Below are positions 12,652 to 20,964 of a stretch of 21,839 nucleotides of DNA, in pieces; within the stretch, counting starts at the first letter, position 1, and each line of letters opens with the position of its first letter. The stretch comes from a virus. The notes under the pieces were generated by a model. That model saw only the letters and a list, made by a program, of their open reading frames with translations, made no database searches and was not told the DNA's origin. The stretch lies in IMG/VR virus record IMGVR_UViG_3300020179_003432, positions 1-21,839 of that record. One strand, written 5' to 3'. A program made the translations under genes and the position numbers.

Positions 12652-12722
12652 ATGTTTAGTTTACTTTTAAAAATTATTTTTCAACAATTCTTGAATTATA
12701 AGGTGTTTTGTTAATTAAAAAC
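12652..12722. promoter_or_regulatory. Divergent intergenic region between two glycosyltransferase genes
   Basis: This 71-base AT-rich gap separates a minus-strand gene from a plus-strand gene and should hold promoters for both. On the minus side, AGTAAACT lies six bases before the ATG, a degenerate version of the late octamer. On the plus side only TTATAAGG is seen. No clear -35/-10 pair or hairpin is visible. Confidence 0.3.
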
Positions 12723-13358
12723 ATGGACGTTAACTTTATTGTCACCTGTTATAACCGGGAAAACTATTGGCCGTATTTGAAGGAAATTCTTAATTCTTAC
12801 AAAATAATCAAACCTCATATCGCATATTGTTATAATGGTGTCAATCCGGATGAGGTTTGTGATTTTCGTTGTGGCAATCGAGGACATATTGAAGGGGATA
12901 CTGACATGATGATTGGGGGTTATAATCTTTTGAAAGACAATGGTGTTAAAAATTGGATCAAACTGAGCGTGGACAGTTGGCTATTGGATGAACAAAAGGT
13001 GGTGGATATTCTCAATTTAATGGAGGAAAAGGATTATGTTTATGCCGGTTGTCGTTGGACAGGTGATCCTTGGTTTAGCACAGATGTTTTCTTTGCCCGG
13101 GAAAACGAATTCCGATTCATGCATAAATATGCAAAATGGGCCATTCATTACATTGAAAAAGTGGATTATTCAATTGAAAGGTGCATTGCAGATCTAGCCA
13201 AACAAAGCGGCAAATATTATTTGATTCCGGAACGGGACCCGGTTCCGGGCAATCACGGCACCCGTTATGTTGTGGAAAAGCTGGGATGGGCCATGTACCA
13301 CGAACTGGACAAGAATCTTGAAATGCTGGAAAATTACAAAAAGTCCAAGCTTTTGTAA
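12723..13358 (+). CDS. Putative GT-A glycosyltransferase, plus strand
   Basis: A 211-residue protein from the ATG at 12723; an alternative TTG at 12708 adds five residues and has AAGG closer to it. It begins with NFIVTCYNRENYWPYLKEIL, typical of a GT-A Rossmann start. It continues with WIKLSVDSWLLDEQKV, in which Asp in VDS takes the place of a DxD, and VYAGCRWTGDPWFSTDVFFA, an acceptor-side segment. It is short for a full enzyme but complete in domain order. It is the only plus-strand gene in the glycan region, and its 3' end overlaps the opposing GDPD-like gene by 25 bases. It could have been inserted separately. Substrate unknown. Confidence 0.6.
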   Translation: MDVNFIVTCYNRENYWPYLKEILNSYKIIKPHIAYCYNGVNPDEVCDFRCGNRGHIEGDTDMMIGGYNLLKDNGVKNWIKLSVDSWLLDEQKVVDILNLMEEKDYVYAGCRWTGDPWFSTDVFFARENEFRFMHKYAKWAIHYIEKVDYSIERCIADLAKQSGKYYLIPERDPVPGNHGTRYVVEKLGWAMYHELDKNLEMLENYKKSKLL

Positions 13359-13783
13359 CTTTCAATAATGTCGGAGCATATTCCGGCACATCCAAAAACA
13401 TCATCTTTGTTTACCTCCGGCAGCACAGCAATACTGTTTTTTACCGGTTGTTTTCCGGGATAAACCCAAACATATCCTTTGCTTGTAAGGGTCATATCGT
13501 CTTTATCGTGCCAAAAATAGTTAAGTTCCGGATGATTCTGCATCAGTTCCATGCTTTCATGATCTTTACAGTGAATCCAAAGATTTTCTTTTCTTTCTAT
13601 TAGCCACCTTATTCCAACCGGATAAACCGGATTGTCGTGACCCGAATGAACAATCCCGTCATTTATACGAATGTCCACTTCACAATCATATCCCTGGTGC
13701 AAAACTTCATCAATGCAACTGGGATGATTTTCCCTCTTTTTATCGCTGCCTTTTAGATTTCCCCGATGAGATATGAGAATCAT
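13334..13783 (-). CDS. Small GDPD/PI-PLC-like phosphodiesterase domain protein
   Basis: Glycerophosphodiester phosphodiesterases are TIM-barrel enzymes. Here 149 residues show the start of the fold: ILISHRGNLKG (His6, Arg7), DCEVDIRIND (Glu35, Asp37) and VHSGHDNPVYPVG (Gly-His-Asp at 48-50), which match the HRG, ExD and GHD active-site motifs. Later WIHCKDHESMEL and YFWHDKDDMTLTSKGYVWVY look like further barrel strands. It is only about half to two thirds of the usual GDPD length (roughly 230-350), so it may be a compact family. Such short proteins are known to me from surface-polysaccharide clusters, where they might act on lipid-linked or phosphate-linked glycans. It overlaps the fusion gene upstream as ATGA. 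Confidence 0.65.
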   Translation of the reverse strand: MILISHRGNLKGSDKKRENHPSCIDEVLHQGYDCEVDIRINDGIVHSGHDNPVYPVGIRWLIERKENLWIHCKDHESMELMQNHPELNYFWHDKDDMTLTSKGYVWVYPGKQPVKNSIAVLPEVNKDDVFGCAGICSDIIESYKSLDFL

Positions 13784-15156
13784 TCAGGTCGGTTTTTCAA
13801 AAAGTATTCCAAATCTTCGGGAACGCCCAAGCCCCACATCTTTTCAATATTAAACACTTTGATTTTCTTTCCGTCCTGTATTGCTTCGTTAAACACTGGA
13901 CAAACATAAAATTCGTTATTGACTCGAATGTTCTTTCCAATCATTTGTTCGGCATATTTGACATAGTCCGATCCTTTTTTCCAATAATAAACACCTACGG
14001 TTGCTATGTTGCTGATAGGATTCTTTTCCGCCACTTCACTCACAAACCCATCTTCATTTACCTTTGCATAGCTCCACTTGGGATGGGTTGAATTAAAAGT
14101 GAGAATTCCTGCGTCGATATTGTCTGCAATCATGGAATACATGAATTCGTTGCTGTCCCATTCAATAAACTGATCAGAATTCGCAATAATCAGGCTTTTA
14201 TCGTCATTAAAATATTCTTTGGCCAAAAGAGTGGTGCAAGCTGCTCCTTCTGTCAGACCCTGGGTCTGCACAATCTTACAGTTGGGAGATATTATATTTA
14301 AAAGATTTTTTAAATTATATTTTTCGTAATGTTCCTTTTGGACTATGAAAACATGCTCGGCATCAATGTTAAGATTTTCAATAACAACCTGAATCATGGG
14401 TTTGCCCCGCACTTCAATCAATGGCTTGGGAAATGTATATCCGGCCCGTTCAAAACGGGAACCTGCACCTGCCATGGGAATGAGCACTCGCACATCTCCC
14501 CGTCCTTGCCATTTGGGTTTTATCATGTGTGTTTCCTTTTTATCTATGAATGCTTTCAGTTTTTCATAGTTTAAATCGTTACTATTTTTAACAGCAAAAA
14601 GATGTGCTCCAGATCTTTGGGCGGCTTTTCTTCCAATATGAGAATCCTCCACGATCACCGTTTCATCTGGATTGGCACAGCAAGCCAGCATTGCCCGCAG
14701 ATAAACCTCGGCACTTGGCTTGGGGTTTGTCACATCCTCATTTGAAAATAAATGGTCGATATATTCGAAAAATCCTTTTCGCAACAGTTGGATTTTGGAT
14801 GTTTCCCGTATGGAATTGGTGCAACAACAAATTTTCTTTCCATCCTGTTTGATTTTTTTTAAAATTTCCCGGATACGTTCATCCGTTTGAAAACTTTCAA
14901 TAATATCTTTTGTGTATTTTTGTTTAAGTTCCCAAACCCGTTTATGTAATTCCGGAGGCAAACCTTTCTTTTCGCTGAGTATTTTAAGCTTTTTTGTTGT
15001 ACTAAGCCCGTCAAATGTGGAAAGATGCTCCTCTTTGTTTATTATATATTTTTTATCAATATCCTCCAAGGCTCGATTTAGACTAGCATAATGCAGTTCC
15101 CGGGAATCGACCAGAACACCGTCCAGATCAAATATGACCAGTTTTACATCACTCAT
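13780..15156 (-). CDS. HAD phosphatase - nucleotidyltransferase fusion
   Basis: A bifunctional 458-residue enzyme that would remove one phosphate and add a nucleotide to a sugar phosphate. Residues 1-205 are a beta-phosphoglucomutase-like HAD domain: VIFDLDGVLVD (Asp10, Asp12), CCTNS (111-115), KPSAEVY (146-152) and VIVEDSHIGRKAA (167-179). Residues 222-458 are an NTP-transferase domain: LIPMAGAGSRFERAGYTFPK then PL, with GxGxRF at 230-235, EGAACTTLLA, and NSDQFIEWDS (Asp327). WGLGVPEDLEYF ends it, as in dTDP-glucose pyrophosphorylase-like proteins of LPS clusters. The ATG at 15156 overlaps the kinase TGA as ATGA; a start at 15204 would overlap the kinase by 52 bases. With the HldA-like kinase upstream it could carry out the dephosphorylation and nucleotidylation steps of activated heptose synthesis. 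Nucleotide and sugar are unknown. Confidence 0.85.
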   Translation of the reverse strand: MSDVKLVIFDLDGVLVDSRELHYASLNRALEDIDKKYIINKEEHLSTFDGLSTTKKLKILSEKKGLPPELHKRVWELKQKYTKDIIESFQTDERIREILKKIKQDGKKICCCTNSIRETSKIQLLRKGFFEYIDHLFSNEDVTNPKPSAEVYLRAMLACCANPDETVIVEDSHIGRKAAQRSGAHLFAVKNSNDLNYEKLKAFIDKKETHMIKPKWQGRGDVRVLIPMAGAGSRFERAGYTFPKPLIEVRGKPMIQVVIENLNIDAEHVFIVQKEHYEKYNLKNLLNIISPNCKIVQTQGLTEGAACTTLLAKEYFNDDKSLIIANSDQFIEWDSNEFMYSMIADNIDAGILTFNSTHPKWSYAKVNEDGFVSEVAEKNPISNIATVGVYYWKKGSDYVKYAEQMIGKNIRVNNEFYVCPVFNEAIQDGKKIKVFNIEKMWGLGVPEDLEYFLKNRPE

Positions 15157-15890
15157 AGGGTTGGTGTGGTTACTCCTCGATGTTTGGCCACTTCGGACGC
15201 GCAACGATTGGCAAAAACTATGCTTTGATGAATATCGTTTGTTTTAAGATATTCAACAACCAAACCCGCCAAAAAGGTGTCACCACAACCGGAAGTGTCC
15301 TTTACTTCTATTCGTTTGGTTGGATAAATCTTTCCACCATATTCACAACCGTCTCCTCCTTTTGTGCAAATTATCTTGCTTTGCAGTTCAGGTGTCAATG
15401 TTTCCTTGCTTCTTTGATATTCAAAGTTATTAATTTTTATATATTTTGATTTGTTTGCCCAGGATCCCAGTTTCTTTTTCGTGTCAATAAACACGTTGGA
15501 ATGATTTGAGCATATTTCTTCAATATCTTCTTCATTTAAAAATCCTTTATTATAATCGGAAATGACAATTAATTTATAATCATATCGAAGCAAAGATTTG
15601 TCTATTCTGTCAATATTGTGATCAGTATCCACCCGCATGAACATATGATTGGTTTGTTCATGCACATATCTTGTTTTTGATACATGAATCCAGTTTGTGT
15701 TTGTGATAATGTTGCAATCTTGATTCAGGGAAAGAATGTTTCTTTGAACATTCTTGGCCATTCCTTCGTTTTCAGTCTGACGAATGACTTTTAACGCTGG
15801 AACGGGAATATCAGGACACAAACGAGTACAATCACAGTAAACAAAAATATCTCTACAACTTTCACCGATGATGAGAATATCGTTGTTCAT
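15153..15890 (-). CDS. Heptose-kinase-like PfkB family sugar kinase (HldE/HldA N-domain type)
   Basis: PfkB-fold kinase of 245 residues, shorter than typical HldA/HldE kinase domains (about 320). N-terminal DILIIGESCRDIFVYCDCTR and CPDIPVPALKVI match the heptose-7-phosphate kinase pattern (GD-x-x-xD, then sPEaPVPVvkv). KYIKINNFEYQ (149-159) is the central strand. DTSGCGDTFLAGL at 198-210 carries the anion hole GCGD and catalytic Asp204, and FANRCASEVAKHRGVTTP ends it, as in HldE. The usual GGAANV is EGMAKNV here (42-48), so one glycine is lost and the sugar pocket may differ. It starts five bases after the TPP enzyme stop and passes by ATGA to the fusion gene. A heptose or related phosphorylated sugar is the likeliest substrate. 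Confidence 0.75.
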   Translation of the reverse strand: MNNDILIIGESCRDIFVYCDCTRLCPDIPVPALKVIRQTENEGMAKNVQRNILSLNQDCNIITNTNWIHVSKTRYVHEQTNHMFMRVDTDHNIDRIDKSLLRYDYKLIVISDYNKGFLNEEDIEEICSNHSNVFIDTKKKLGSWANKSKYIKINNFEYQRSKETLTPELQSKIICTKGGDGCEYGGKIYPTKRIEVKDTSGCGDTFLAGLVVEYLKTNDIHQSIVFANRCASEVAKHRGVTTPTL

Positions 15891-15895
15891 TCATT

Positions 15896-17080
15896 TTAGA
15901 AGCAGCTTTTCTTTTCCACCACCATGCAAGGACGATTGGAATTGATTGCGTTCTGGTAGGCAATCACAGCTTCTTTACCTGTGTTTGGAACATAGATGGG
16001 GAAATCCACCATGTGGCGGAATCCTTCAGTAAAGTCCTGTGAATGAGTCGGACCCGAATAAAAGGGCCCAGAATCAGCCACAACTGAACGAAGAATGACC
16101 GGAACCTGATATTCCCCGTGAGATATTCTTTCAATGTGATTCACATGATTCACAATGGCATCTGCTGCTACCAGCATGAAATCATGACGCTCGTAATAAA
16201 CTACTGGCTTGAATCCTTCAAACGACATGCCAATTCCAAGACCGGTCATCAGGTTTTCAGCCACGGGGGTTTCAATCTTTTGGGTTTTGTCTACACCCTT
16301 AAGTGTTCCCATGGCATCTCCGTTGGCAACATTGTATCCGATAAACACTGAATTCATTTTGCCAATCTCCGTCATCATTTGATTGATAGCATCTTTGAAC
16401 TTGATGTCTTCCGGGGGATTTACAACCGGAAGCTCTTCTTTTGATAAAGGAGGAAAATAGTCATCATGGGTTTTTACTTTGGTTTTACCCAGATTGATCA
16501 TGTCTTCGGTGCGGGCATGGGGCCAAGTAATATCGTAATAATATTTTCTTACACAAGGAAAGAATGTTGGATCGAGTGCCTTGCCCCAACGCTCTGTTTT
16601 ATCAGTTGTGACAGATCGATTATTGTCCTCAATAACAAAAGTGCAGGGCAGATCAAATCCATGAACATATCGAGCCGCTTCAAAAAGATGTCCGGAATCT
16701 TCAGTACCATCCCCAACAAAACACCATACCTTCTTGTCAGATCCTTTTCTTTTCAGGGCAAGGGCGATTCCAGCAGCAATTGCGGCAGTCCCCCCGATAA
16801 TAGCAGATGTAAAGAAGTTTCTTTTCCGATCATAAACAAACATGCTCCGTCCGTTCTTAATCCTGTCCTCCAATACATCTGCAGGAATGCCATGCAAAAG
16901 GGCATGATAATGATTGCGATGAGTTGCCAAAACATAATCACCTTCCTTAATTTCTTTGAAAATCTCAATCAATTGATCTTCATTTCCGCCAGAAAGATGA
17001 AAAAGAAAGGGAAGCTGACAATCCCGGTAAAGGTCTGCAATTCGATTTTCAAAATTCAGTAGATCATTTTTGTTTAGCAT
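15896..17080 (-). CDS. Compact TPP-dependent E1-like enzyme (alpha-beta fusion)
   Basis: Thiamine-diphosphate enzyme of 394 residues. Residues about 50-210 match the PP domain of E1-alpha: ATHRNHYHALLHG, GGTAAIAAGIALALK, and the diphosphate motif GDGTEDSG (123-130) with Asn153-Asn154 after a strand. Residues about 225-394 match the PYR domain of E1-beta: VFIGYNVANGDAMG, TPVAENLMTGLGIGMSFEG (Glu275 is the cofactor-activating residue), and FDFPIYVPNTGKE-like end. The third transketolase-type C-terminal domain is missing. Separate E1 alpha and beta chains are each about 330-400, so this is unusually short. No lipoyl partner gene is present. In a sugar cluster it may transfer a two-carbon unit or decarboxylate a keto acid onto a sugar; the reaction is unknown. 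It lies 13 bases from the dehydrogenase. Confidence 0.75.
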   Translation of the reverse strand: MLNKNDLLNFENRIADLYRDCQLPFLFHLSGGNEDQLIEIFKEIKEGDYVLATHRNHYHALLHGIPADVLEDRIKNGRSMFVYDRKRNFFTSAIIGGTAAIAAGIALALKRKGSDKKVWCFVGDGTEDSGHLFEAARYVHGFDLPCTFVIEDNNRSVTTDKTERWGKALDPTFFPCVRKYYYDITWPHARTEDMINLGKTKVKTHDDYFPPLSKEELPVVNPPEDIKFKDAINQMMTEIGKMNSVFIGYNVANGDAMGTLKGVDKTQKIETPVAENLMTGLGIGMSFEGFKPVVYYERHDFMLVAADAIVNHVNHIERISHGEYQVPVILRSVVADSGPFYSGPTHSQDFTEGFRHMVDFPIYVPNTGKEAVIAYQNAINSNRPCMVVEKKSCF

Positions 17081-17093
17081 AAAATTTATTTTA

Positions 17094-18095
17094 TCAGGGG
17101 CGAATCATAATTCTACCGGCTTTTCCATTTTTTACCAAATCTATGGCAGTATTCACCTGATCCAGACTGAATCGGTGGGTTATGAGTTTTTCAAAATTAA
17201 TATTTCTTTTTTTATACAAATTTACATATCGGGGAAAGTCCTCGGATGGATTCACGTTTCCACCCTGTGTGGAGCGAATGATTTGACCGTTTCCTGAGAA
17301 AAAGTTTGCAGGATTTTTTATTTCCAAATTATTCTTTTCGTGGGGTTGACTTACAATTATGCATCGGCCCCGGGATGATAGGAGCGGTAGATAATGGGAA
17401 ACCACTAACATGTTGCCAGTAGTATCCACAATACAATCTATTTTTTCACATATTTGATTGGCTCCTCCAACAAATCTTGCCCCTAGTTCTTCCACCATGG
17501 CTTGTTTTTCACTGGAAATATCCACCCCGTAAATGTTTCCGGATCCTGCCATGTTTGCAGCCATGATGATATTCAATCCCACACCCCCACAACCTATCAC
17601 CAAAACAGATTCTCCAAACTTTATGTTTGCGTCATAGTTCACGATTCCAAGCGCAGTGCTCATACCGCACCCAAGAAGTGCGCAAAATTCATCCGGTATA
17701 TCCTGTGGGACCACAGTCAATCGGTTTTCTGAAACAATACTCTTTTCGCTTAATGTGGTTATTTTTCCGCTGCTTATACGCTTACCATCATAAATGTATT
17801 CGGGAAATGGAGATTCTATACCCTCTCCTTTTTTCCAATGAAGTATGACTTTATCACCTGTTTTAACTCTTGTTACACCTTCTCCAACACATTCCACGAT
17901 TCCGCAACCTTCATGGCCCAAAAGATGAGGAACAAACTTGGCATTTCCTTTTTGACCGGCAATCTCCTGAAGCTGCGCCCCACATACACCGCTGACATTT
18001 ATTTTAACAGCTACCTGACCAAATTTCATTTCAGTCAGGGCCACATCTGCCACCACAAGCGGGTGGTCAATCTTTTCCAGAATTGCTGCCTTCAT
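17094..18095 (-). CDS. Zinc-type medium-chain dehydrogenase without structural zinc lobe
   Basis: MDR-family oxidoreductase of 333 residues. Catalytic zinc ligands are visible: Cys38 in VSGVCGAQLQ, His61-Glu62 in LLGHEGCG, and Cys143 in LLGCGMSTALG. The Rossmann motif is VLVIGCGGVGLN (164-175), with Asp192 after the next strand favouring NAD(H). The usual four-Cys structural-zinc loop is absent and replaced by HWKKGEGIESPFPEYI (86-101), a form I recall from exopolysaccharide and LPS clusters. The start overlaps the methyltransferase stop as ATGA, and the TPP enzyme follows. It probably oxidises or reduces a sugar or a sugar precursor made by its neighbours; the substrate cannot be told from sequence. 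Confidence 0.8.
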   Translation of the reverse strand: MKAAILEKIDHPLVVADVALTEMKFGQVAVKINVSGVCGAQLQEIAGQKGNAKFVPHLLGHEGCGIVECVGEGVTRVKTGDKVILHWKKGEGIESPFPEYIYDGKRISSGKITTLSEKSIVSENRLTVVPQDIPDEFCALLGCGMSTALGIVNYDANIKFGESVLVIGCGGVGLNIIMAANMAGSGNIYGVDISSEKQAMVEELGARFVGGANQICEKIDCIVDTTGNMLVVSHYLPLLSSRGRCIIVSQPHEKNNLEIKNPANFFSGNGQIIRSTQGGNVNPSEDFPRYVNLYKKRNINFEKLITHRFSLDQVNTAIDLVKNGKAGRIMIRP

Positions 18096-18781
18096 TTCTT
18101 TCGACCAATATAAAGCAAGGTGGCATAGTGACTGTCCGGAGCACGTCCCTCTTGCCTGTTCAGAATCTTATCAAATACTGGTTCATATTTTGAAAGAAAT
18201 GGTTTGGCATCTTCGTGATCAAAACGAATGGGATGCATCATACCATGGGGATCATCTTTGGGTGTTTTATTAAAATCCTCCTGATTGGTAAGATCATTTC
18301 CCAAAACAAGAATTCCTCCCTTTTTCAAATTATTATATAAAGATTCCATACACTTGGGCATGCTATACACATGATCCAGCACATTAATGCAAACAATCAT
18401 GTCTACCGGTTCTTTTGTGGTCCATTCCTCAAGAGGCTTGGCACTGAGGGTTGCCTTCACATCCATGGCAAAACTTGCCACTGGACGATTCATATTCACA
18501 TAATCCTTCAGCAAAGGATCACTGAGAAAGTATTTGGTGGGTTTATTTTGCAGTGCCTGAACCACAAACTGGATATTTTTGGCAATCGGACCACAACCAA
18601 CTTCGGCTATGGAATCCACTTTTTCATTTGCAATCGAAACATAATGGTCAAATTTCATTTTCCACCACATGTTCCAATCGTCTCCGATATTGTTGGCTTC
18701 CCACAGTTTAAGTTCCATTTGCTGGGATTCGCTTGCCCAAGCATCCTTGGGTATTTCCTTGTATCTTTCAGTAATGTTCAT
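18092..18781 (-). CDS. Class I SAM-dependent methyltransferase
   Basis: A 229-residue protein from the ATG at 18781, which overlaps the FkbM stop as ATGA; a start at 18802 would overlap more and lacks support. SIAEVGCGPIAKNIQFV at about 57-73 is motif I of a class I methyltransferase (E/D-x-G-x-G). VDMIVCINVLDHVYSMP is motif IV-like with an Asp-His, and LKKGGILVLGNDL is the final beta strand. The N-terminal half before motif I is helical. Substrate is likely a sugar, lipid or small metabolite because the next genes are FkbM and dehydrogenase. It is placed in the same overlapping operon as the glycosyltransferases. Confidence 0.75.
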   Translation of the reverse strand: MNITERYKEIPKDAWASESQQMELKLWEANNIGDDWNMWWKMKFDHYVSIANEKVDSIAEVGCGPIAKNIQFVVQALQNKPTKYFLSDPLLKDYVNMNRPVASFAMDVKATLSAKPLEEWTTKEPVDMIVCINVLDHVYSMPKCMESLYNNLKKGGILVLGNDLTNQEDFNKTPKDDPHGMMHPIRFDHEDAKPFLSKYEPVFDKILNRQEGRAPDSHYATLLYIGRKK

Positions 18782-19443
18782 TTGGCATATAACATTCCCC
18801 AACGCATTTTGCGTTCAGGTTCAATGTCCTCGTCTTTTACAAGATCCTCCCAGCTTTTGTATTCCAAAGATGGATTGAATTCCTGTATGGTTTCACTTGT
18901 TCCTTCCCAATGGCTATCATTGGCAAACTGGTTATAGCCAAGTTTTTTTAACATTTCAACACATTTTTTTGTATCTGTGAAAAATTCCTCACCCCATTCC
19001 AATAAAACGGTGCCGCATTTTTGCGATAATCCGCTTAATGCAATTGATTCTGCCCCTTCAATATCCAATTTTATAACATCGGGAATGCCATAAACACTTA
19101 TCATCTTGTCCAAAGTTGTGGATCTGACCTTTATTTCTCGTTTGGTTTTTTGAAAATAATGACTGTGTCGGATCTTTTCTATCCATTCCGGGTTTATGGA
19201 GTTGATGCCTGGATTACTATCACAAATAAAAAGAGAAACATCTTGTCTGCAGGAATCTGAAACAACACCATCAATATATGTTACGTTTGGAATAGGGTTA
19301 TTTTCAAACATTTGTTTGTATATGGGGTGGCCATCCACACCTATTATTTTTGCATTTGGATACATGCTCAAAATACATTTTGTAAAATTTCCCACGTTGT
19401 ATCCAATATCAAAAATTAGGGGGTAATTATCGTTCATAGACAT
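18778..19443 (-). CDS. FkbM family methyltransferase
   Basis: FkbM-type enzymes O-methylate sugars, often the terminal residue of a glycan chain. The 221-residue sequence has FDIGYNVGNFTKCILSMYPN at 11-30 (SAM-binding motif I), then AKIIGVDGHP (31-40). RSTTLDKMISVYGIPDVIKL followed by DIEGAE at about 107-132 is the FkbM signature. A C-terminal region with SHWEGTSETIQE follows. The ATG at 19443 overlaps the upstream gene by 17 bases; Met3 (19437) is an alternative start. It is coupled to the second methyltransferase by ATGA. It would decorate the sugar assembled by the neighbouring glycosyltransferases. Confidence 0.85.
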   Translation of the reverse strand: MSMNDNYPLIFDIGYNVGNFTKCILSMYPNAKIIGVDGHPIYKQMFENNPIPNVTYIDGVVSDSCRQDVSLFICDSNPGINSINPEWIEKIRHSHYFQKTKREIKVRSTTLDKMISVYGIPDVIKLDIEGAESIALSGLSQKCGTVLLEWGEEFFTDTKKCVEMLKKLGYNQFANDSHWEGTSETIQEFNPSLEYKSWEDLVKDEDIEPERKMRWGMLYAK

Positions 19444-20119
19444 GCCAATTCAATCGGTTGGTTGGATATTCCCATGGCTCAATCGGTTTTGTATATCTAT
19501 GCATGTACAGGGGTTTATCCAATTGTTTAAAAACCAGATCCACCATGAACATGACGCAGGATTCTATCACATGCACTTCTTTTGCATTCTCAATTATTTT
19601 GCAATAATCAAATATGTTGTTTGTGTATTCTGGTTTAACCCGGAATATTTTTAAATTTTTATCCTGTATTTTGTTTGTGTCCACAACCTGATTGCGGTCC
19701 AGATCATCATGAATAAAAGCATATTCTCCGGGTTGAAAACCAAAGCTGGAATACATTTTGTTTTCCCGTTCAGGATCCCGTTCCACATAAAAGCTTTCCC
19801 ATTTCTTGTTAAAATCCACTCCTGCTTGTGCATAAAAGCTTTTTTCCACTGTGTCTGCCCCACCTATTCCCAATTTGTAAAAATTTTTAATTCCATGCAG
19901 ATTTGTAAAATATTGTGCTCCGCTTTCCTCTATGGGGAAAACTCTTAAGTTGGGCAAATCCCGATACATGAATTCAATATTATAATAATATTTCAGCTTG
20001 CTATACACATACAGTTTTGGATGCCGTTTATAAAGTTCTCGAACAAGACCGTTGCAAGTAACCTGATCGCCCAACCCAAGATGTGTAAGAACATGCCCTT
20101 CTTCTGATTTAATAATCAT
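19427..20119 (-). CDS. GT-B-like glycosyltransferase
   Basis: A 230-residue protein. The N-terminus THLGLGDQVTCNGLVRELYK is a phosphate-binding G-L-G-D loop followed by a helix, as in GT-B heptosyl/fucosyltransferase-like enzymes. The strand KLYVYSKLKYYYNIEFMYRD follows. The C-terminal half has IFDYCKIIENAKEVHVIESC and VDLVFKQLDKPLYMHRY, where the Glu-Ser-Cys segment sits where GT-B donor-binding residues lie. It is shorter than a full two-domain GT-B, so part of the fold may be reduced. Family not certain. It is coupled by ATGA to the CgeB-like gene and overlaps FkbM, so it probably acts in the same pathway. Confidence 0.65.
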   Translation of the reverse strand: MIIKSEEGHVLTHLGLGDQVTCNGLVRELYKRHPKLYVYSKLKYYYNIEFMYRDLPNLRVFPIEESGAQYFTNLHGIKNFYKLGIGGADTVEKSFYAQAGVDFNKKWESFYVERDPERENKMYSSFGFQPGEYAFIHDDLDRNQVVDTNKIQDKNLKIFRVKPEYTNNIFDYCKIIENAKEVHVIESCVMFMVDLVFKQLDKPLYMHRYTKPIEPWEYPTNRLNWHVYER

Positions 20120-20964
20120 AGGGTCTGAACGTATTTGATAAGGCTTTTTGCTCGATTCTTGAAAGTATGTTTTTGTCGAACAAATTGTTCTCCTTTGATA
20201 CCAACGTCCTTGGCAACCAGAGGATTTGCTTTCAAATAATTTATTTTATCAATTGCTTCTTCCAAGCTTTTGTATGTGAAAAATGTTTCGCTTTCCTTGA
20301 ATCCCAGATCATTATACTGATCATCATAACTGGTCAGAAGACATGTTCCACATCCAGCCGTTTCAAAGCTGCGGTAATTGATATCGTTGAAAATATTCTT
20401 GTTAAACAGAACCACGTATGAATTGATGGCCCGGATCATGTGAATTCCCCGCACGTCAATGTCCATTTTAAACTCGGGAAAACGGTTGTAGATCGCATCA
20501 AACAAGGGCTTTCGGTTACAATAGTTTCCGCAAAATCCCAAAAATGTATTTTTACCTATGTAGGGCAATGGAGTTATGAAATCCGAATCATAACAGTTAG
20601 GAAACCAAACACTGTTTTCGTCCACAAAATACCGGGTGGCTTCCAGTATTTTCCGATATTTTCCCTTGTTGAAAATGTTCATATAATAGGATTTTCCCTG
20701 ACAATGACTATCAATAGCCCAAAGAAGCTTGATCGGTTTGTTATATTCTGAAAGATCCGGAACCCATCCCACATCATAATTTTCCAAATTGATGATCACA
20801 TCATAGGAATTATAATCCGGTTTCTTTTCAAAATTATCATGACCCAAACCCCAAACATCGCATTCCTCTCCATGAAACCAAAGAGCACGGCAAAGACTAT
20901 GGCATTCCCGCAAATGACGGCTAACCAGATGGCGTCCATTTTCCTGTATGATCAAGAATTTCAT
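20116..20964 (-). CDS. CgeB-like GT-B glycosyltransferase
   Basis: A 282-residue protein. The N-terminal part has FLIIQENGRHLVSRHLREC and a Rossmann-like DVIINLEN strand. The C-terminal part, with NYRSFETAGCGTCLLTSYDD (about 216-235), ESETFFTYKSLEEAIDKI and HTFKNRAKSL, is the classical end of GT4/CgeB-type glycosyltransferases. There the R-x-F-E-x-x-a-x-G segment contacts the donor and the helix after Y-x-s-l-e-E-a closes the fold. Donor and acceptor unknown. It overlaps genes on both sides by ATGA. The best current name is spore-maturation CgeB-like glycosyltransferase. Confidence 0.75.
   Translation of the reverse strand: MKFLIIQENGRHLVSRHLRECHSLCRALWFHGEECDVWGLGHDNFEKKPDYNSYDVIINLENYDVGWVPDLSEYNKPIKLLWAIDSHCQGKSYYMNIFNKGKYRKILEATRYFVDENSVWFPNCYDSDFITPLPYIGKNTFLGFCGNYCNRKPLFDAIYNRFPEFKMDIDVRGIHMIRAINSYVVLFNKNIFNDINYRSFETAGCGTCLLTSYDDQYNDLGFKESETFFTYKSLEEAIDKINYLKANPLVAKDVGIKGEQFVRQKHTFKNRAKSLIKYVQTL

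Follow-up and report, generated by a model that had tools for sequence, protein, structure and literature searches.

Bacteria make activated heptose by the ADP/NDP-heptose pathway (GmhA, HldA/HldE, GmhB, HldC or HddC, HldD). E1-like enzyme pairs of the avilamycin, paulomycin and everninomicin pathways, namely AviB1/AviB2 and Pau11/Pau12 (PMC4753412) and EvdU5/EvdS3 (PMC10338323), have been proposed, though not yet demonstrated, to form branched sugars. Phages are known to carry lipopolysaccharide (LPS) genes, such as rfaE and UDP-glucose dehydrogenase in pelagimyophages/cyanomyophages (PMC7029224). Here we examine a group of sugar genes in the virus record IMGVR_UViG_3300020179_003432, the whole of which (21,839 bases) forms the window of this study. 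An initial annotation had described four consecutive genes as a single sugar-activation set, with the kinase, phosphatase and nucleotidyltransferase in the order of bacterial NDP-heptose synthesis. All four open reading frames (ORFs) are present and intact on the minus strand, with families assigned by Pfam/NCBIfam. We show that these genes are the junction of two modules, A and B, and not one inherited pathway. The genes of the two modules are:

17094-18095, minus strand: module A, MDR (zinc) dehydrogenase, 333 aa (Pfam ADH_N and ADH_zinc_N; phrog_2640, 6e-84)
15896-17080, minus strand: module A, E1-like thiamine pyrophosphate (TPP) enzyme, 394 aa (Pfam E1_dh and Transket_pyr; phrog_34187, 2e-190)
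15153-15890, minus strand: module A, short HldA-like PfkB kinase, 245 aa (Pfam PfkB; TIGR02198, 9e-26)
13780-15153, minus strand: module B, HAD-IA phosphatase/nucleotidyltransferase fusion, 457 aa (Pfam HAD_2, 6e-29; NTP_transferase, 2e-13)
13334-13783, minus strand: module B, GDPD-like small protein, 149 aa (motif only)

Gene neighbourhoods were taken from loci matching E1 (64 viral and 48 cellular, about half of the latter being distant E1-family hits only), the fusion (80) or the kinase (28), and were counted over distinct proteins (58 viral E1, 15 cellular E1 and 67 fusion). Upstream of E1, an MDR gene is no more than three genes away for 56 of the 58 viral and 12 of the 15 cellular proteins; downstream, the short kinase is within the same distance for 49 of the 56 viral proteins that could be judged and for 8/15 cellular ones. 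Near the fusion, a GDPD-like gene (within five genes) was found in 53 of 67 cases, the kinase in 5/67 and E1 in 2/67. Since the fusion is mostly found with its GDPD-like partner and no kinase, the four genes mark the place where two modules meet; the single set proposed initially thus has to be divided. A single four-gene heptose pathway was rejected as a general statement, given the rarity of the kinase near the fusion and the derivation of two of the domains from other families. The statement that the E1-like enzyme and dehydrogenase lie outside the heptose pathway holds for E. coli but overlooks that both are constant partners of the kinase.

We tentatively favour a reading in which two sugar modules lie end to end in a phage glycan operon, module A making and phosphorylating a heptose-like sugar and the adjacent fusion activating it for glycosyltransferases; the substrates and product are those that we infer from the enzyme families. 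The E1-like enzyme would perform a TPP-dependent two-carbon transfer onto the carbonyl of a sugar (or sugar phosphate) to yield a heptose-like sugar, with the MDR enzyme catalysing a paired NAD-dependent step, presumably in either the oxidative or the reductive direction. The kinase may then phosphorylate this sugar at the anomeric carbon. If it does serve this kinase, the fusion could strip off the remaining phosphate and couple the sugar-1-phosphate to a nucleotide, thereby taking the place that a small HAD phosphatase and HldC have in related cyanophages. Neighbouring glycosyltransferases and methyltransferases would attach the sugar to a glycan of the host surface or of the virion. This reading is supported by the genes themselves, their intact active sites and family assignments, the module structure, and the association of module A with heptose genes. 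Several observations weigh against it. The usual partner of the fusion is the GDPD-like gene and not the kinase, such that the substrate of the fusion may be unrelated. Four Patescibacteria (G003, G199, G200 and G201) carry the trio of module A with no match to GmhA or HldC, although these metagenome-assembled genomes (MAGs) may be incomplete, and large phage records (174, 165, 121 and 101 kb) hold module A but no fusion and no clear HldC. As these phages and Patescibacteria hold module A without such nucleotidyltransferases, the kinase need not feed one.

The same data make it a realistic possibility that the modules have two unrelated products, with module A yielding a sugar phosphate, the fusion and GDPD-like protein yielding another NDP-activated compound (e.g. 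a glycerol- or polyol-phosphate donor), and their adjacency being accidental. The neighbourhood counts of the fusion point in this direction, as does locus L025, where module A has its own HldC and the fusion is carried separately; named phages with a full-length fusion show no kinase match, and four genomes of the Cyanobacteriota phylum group GDPD-like, HAD-IA and nucleotidyltransferase genes without module A. Accidental adjacency is harder to reconcile with the abutting of kinase and fusion in two separate phage lineages: the window phage with two near relatives and, separately, loci L186/L187, where the end of the kinase adjoins the start of the fusion with no E1 or MDR nearby. Moreover, the window contig showed no further phosphatase or nucleotidyltransferase that could act on the kinase product. 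Coupling of kinase and fusion is therefore plausible in this phage, though not the usual setting of the fusion.

In the fusion, a HAD-IA phosphatase spans about residues 1-200 and a nucleotidyltransferase of GT-A type about residues 221-457. The ATG of its gene at 15153 gives 457 aa; an alternative TTG at 15204, giving 474 aa, is unlikely because this frame would run into the kinase gene. Active sites are intact in 84/84 sequences (HAD DxD/K/DS; nucleotidyltransferase GxGxR...K and D). The closest relative in the PDB is the uncharacterized 4evw (2e-19), followed by TM_1254 (4e-15) and 5xhw, the C. jejuni heptose-pathway nucleotidyltransferase (6e-7). The phosphatase is of the beta-phosphoglucomutase type and not of the HAD-III type of GmhB (HAD-IIIA, histidinol-phosphatase-like), genuine examples of which, in locus L074, match TIGR00213 at 6e-50. 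Similarly, the nucleotidyltransferase is RmlA/GlmU-like (NTP_transferase, PF00483) and not of the cytidylyltransferase-like fold of HldE/HldC (TIGR02199), while its PF00483 domain with a GxGxR...K signature is a trait it shares with HddC-type enzymes. The proposed correspondence to NDP-heptose synthesis thus stands for gene order and for an HldA-like kinase and fails for the other two domains; since these are not of GmhB/HldC types, the likeness to ADP-heptose synthesis is limited to the order. The GDPD-like partner is labelled from a motif alone, a conserved HRG...E-x-D...H...K pattern, and a Pfam search with this protein gave no match at 0.05. The cellular form of module B is found in loci L237-L240, from genomes of the Cyanobacteriota phylum, where GDPD-like, HAD-IA and two nucleotidyltransferase genes are conserved, usually with a small cupin; the search for cellular homologues of the fusion was confined to 194 genomes of the Cyanobacteriota phylum.

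Both sequence and predicted structure place the kinase nearest to heptose-7-phosphate kinase. Its score against TIGR02198 far exceeds that for ribokinase (9e-26 versus 2e-7), and a search with its AlphaFold2 model (pLDDT 93.9) using Foldseek placed B. cenocepacia HldA (4e84) first at 3.6e-17, with the next family at 5.5e-13; structural comparison (VIA) gave Z 25.4 for HldA versus 23.7. The initial description of a heptose-kinase-like protein is supported by these results, which did not place it with unrelated PfkB enzymes such as ribokinase, the outcome that had been named as refuting it. Alignment with full-length HldE/HldA and 88 relatives showed retention of the motifs R-x-x-P-x-x-P-x-P, G-x-A/G-x-NV, K-x-R, R-x-D, D-Y-x-K-G, N-x-x-E and G-A-G-D, the GxGD Asp being present in 88/88. 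The protein lacks about 30-70 residues of full-length HldA and, with this segment missing, scores 90.8 bits, below the curated TIGR02198 cut-off of 345 bits. In the MDR enzyme, the catalytic zinc ligands Cys38, His61 and Cys143 are conserved in 76, 76 and 75 of 76 relatives, respectively, a GxGGxG motif of NAD type with Asp192 is present, and the structural-zinc Cys cluster is absent as judged by eye.

The E1-like enzyme consists of a PP domain followed by a Pyr domain and carries the Mg/TPP motif and catalytic Glu; Asp124...Asn153 (Mg/TPP site), Glu275 (catalytic) and His346 are invariant in 34/34 sequences. Its AlphaFold2 model (pLDDT 90.8) aligns with transketolase over 353 residues (Z 20.9), covering human transketolase only to residue 477. 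The transketolase C-terminal domain is absent from this 394-aa chain, which stops after the Pyr domain with the kinase starting 5 nt further on. By sequence, its two halves most resemble the alpha and beta chains of pyruvate dehydrogenase E1, and HHalign against whole transketolases gave a weak result (22.6%). A role as the sole transketolase of its carriers was rejected for 9/12 genomes, each of which holds a separate transketolase.

These features bear on whether the locus performs ordinary ADP-/NDP-heptose synthesis, in which E1 would be a small transketolase supplying sedoheptulose 7-phosphate, a host GmhA would isomerize it, and the kinase, HAD and nucleotidyltransferase domains would finish the pathway. 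The whole-chain structural match to transketolase and the HldA-like kinase accord with this proposal, and complete heptose genes adjoin E1 in two cellular lineages: in Prochlorococcus, the MDR and E1 genes are arranged tail to tail with hldD-hldE-gmhB and have gmhA close by, and the E1 gene of a Woesearchaeote has GmhB, an HldA-GmhA fusion and HldC as its neighbours. We nevertheless consider it improbable, as most carriers have a separate transketolase and no obvious need for additional sedoheptulose 7-phosphate, the E1 sequence is nearest to pyruvate dehydrogenase E1, the constant MDR gene is left unexplained, and the four Patescibacteria have module A without GmhA and HldC. The initial annotation noted no GmhA, and indeed neither GmhA nor HldD was found within the window; nor was GmhA found in several large phage records with the trio, which may be incomplete.

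Module A extends well beyond this phage. The trio is present in the named cyanophages S-SM2 and P-TIM68, where it has been annotated piecemeal as 'transketolase central region', 'zinc alcohol dehydrogenase' and 'carbohydrate kinase', and in many cyanophages, including these two, module A lies beside HldC, an HldD-like epimerase, a small HAD and a cupin. Viral and cellular sequences are intermixed in the E1 tree: its well-supported branches require at least six changes of label, and Prochlorococcus falls within a clade that is mainly viral. In the literature searched, we found no description of the MDR-E1-kinase trio as one unit and nothing specific linking cyanophage transketolase and heptose. 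It is possible, if rather doubtful, that MDR-E1-PfkB constitutes a TPP-dependent pathway, so far undescribed, in which a compact two-domain E1-type enzyme builds an extended or branched heptose-like sugar. On this reading, T4-like phages would share the pathway with Patescibacteria and Prochlorococcus, DPANN archaea would have split or kinase-variant versions of it, and it would have been exchanged between viral and cellular genomes.

Other observations were made on these loci. Among loci L085-L096 (DPANN and related), a radical SAM gene often adjoins E1 where MDR is absent, as if substituting for the dehydrogenase, and in several loci E1 is split into genes of about 205 and 174 aa. Locus L077, from a contig titled as a Bifidobacterium breve MAG, has a cyanophage-like MDR-E1-kinase-HldC-cupin cassette and is probably a mis-binned contig. 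The cyanophage T4-GC306 genes (103-115 aa; L002 19974-20285 and 21615-21944, L003 15471-15809, L006 8713-9057) were considered as GmhA candidates due to their RefSeq name, 'phosphoheptose isomerase'. This candidate was rejected: the gene of L003, the one tested, had no match to GmhA or to any NCBIfam/Pfam family, the motifs resemble those of a small HAD phosphatase, and the label looks wrong.

The contig is, from its portal (phrog_213, E 1e-107) and tail sheath stabiliser (E 7e-20) matches, a fragment of a T4-like phage. Its portal has only about 35% identity to those of its best-scoring named relatives, Synechococcus phages, so that these do not identify the host. The operon comprises ten overlapping or nearly abutting genes on the minus strand from about 21704 down to 13334, with spacings of -4 nt (methyltransferase/MDR), 13 (MDR/E1), 5 (E1/kinase), -1 (kinase/fusion) and -4 (fusion/next gene). 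Both its upstream extent, to about 21704, and the GDPD-like gene that goes with the fusion at 13334-13783 are additions to the initial annotation. Upstream of MDR lie:

18092-18790, minus strand: S-adenosylmethionine (SAM) methyltransferase of the same operon (Methyltransf_23, 8e-7; 4-nt overlap with the MDR gene)
18778-19443, minus strand: FkbM-type methyltransferase of the same operon (Methyltransf_21, 2e-8)
19427-20119, minus strand: putative glycosyltransferase with an N-terminal LGLGD motif (gene neighbourhoods)
20116-20964, minus strand: glycosyltransferase of the same operon (Glyco_trans_1_2, CgeB-like; Pfam 1.5e-16)

Relatives of the putative glycosyltransferase adjoin MDR in phages and Patescibacteria; its match to GT9 (heptosyltransferase) by hhalign was weak (36 columns, 2.6% probability). 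Glycosyltransferase and methyltransferase genes around module A, in this phage and in Patescibacteria, and the operon-tight order with these genes, speak against a purely metabolic function, whereby MDR and E1 would break down or rearrange a sugar or 2-oxo acid, the product being trapped by the kinase for central metabolism during infection. Module A often occurs without any tested nucleotidyltransferase, which would favour such a function, but we regard it as very improbable. Two further genes were noted: a lone plus-strand gene (12708-13358) within the otherwise minus-strand operon, kept at the same position in near relatives, and a GMP reductase-like gene of this T4-like phage (9957-10955, minus strand; NF003966, 5e-92, slightly below cut-off), present too in relatives L008, L009 and L121.

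The trio is a conserved enzyme unit of phages and of cells with very reduced metabolism, widespread but uncharacterized, and found also in ultra-small bacteria and Prochlorococcus. If it does build an unusual sugar, E1-type TPP enzymes would gain a new role, and three concrete proteins are at hand to assay. The locus also counsels caution: gene order alone pointed to the heptose pathway, yet two of the four domains come from a different, equally widespread module.

Comparison with known systems places the locus as follows. Relative to the bacterial ADP/NDP-heptose pathway, it has in common an HldA-family kinase and the kinase/phosphatase/nucleotidyltransferase order, but its phosphatase and nucleotidyltransferase are of other families, GmhA and HldD are missing from the window, and E1 and MDR are extra. 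With the LPS genes of pelagimyophages/cyanomyophages it shares phage-borne sugar-nucleotide and glycosyltransferase genes; the word transketolase is absent from that paper (PMC7029224). The Avi, Evd and Pau pairs are two-subunit, pyruvate dehydrogenase E1-like proteins of sugar pathways without an E2 gene (PMC4753412, PMC10338323), whereas the window E1 is one compact chain, phage-borne and tied to an HldA-like kinase; compared by description and not by sequence, these pairs may serve as a precedent for the kind of chemistry and not as a test of homology. For module B, full-length fusions 56-59% identical to that of the window occur in Synechococcus phages B23, S-CAM9 and S-PRM1, with no kinase match there, and the GDPD/HAD/nucleotidyltransferase gene sets of the Cyanobacteriota phylum have the same partner domains as the fusion. 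For module A, the S-SM2 and P-TIM68 cassettes contain the same three genes in the same order, although S-SM2 has an additional gene separating E1 from the kinase, with identities of 60-63% (E1), 52-62% (kinase) and 54-55% (MDR). In these cassettes the kinase is accompanied by an HldD-like epimerase, a small HAD and a nucleotidyltransferase of HldC type encoded separately, whereas that of the window goes with the HAD-nucleotidyltransferase fusion.

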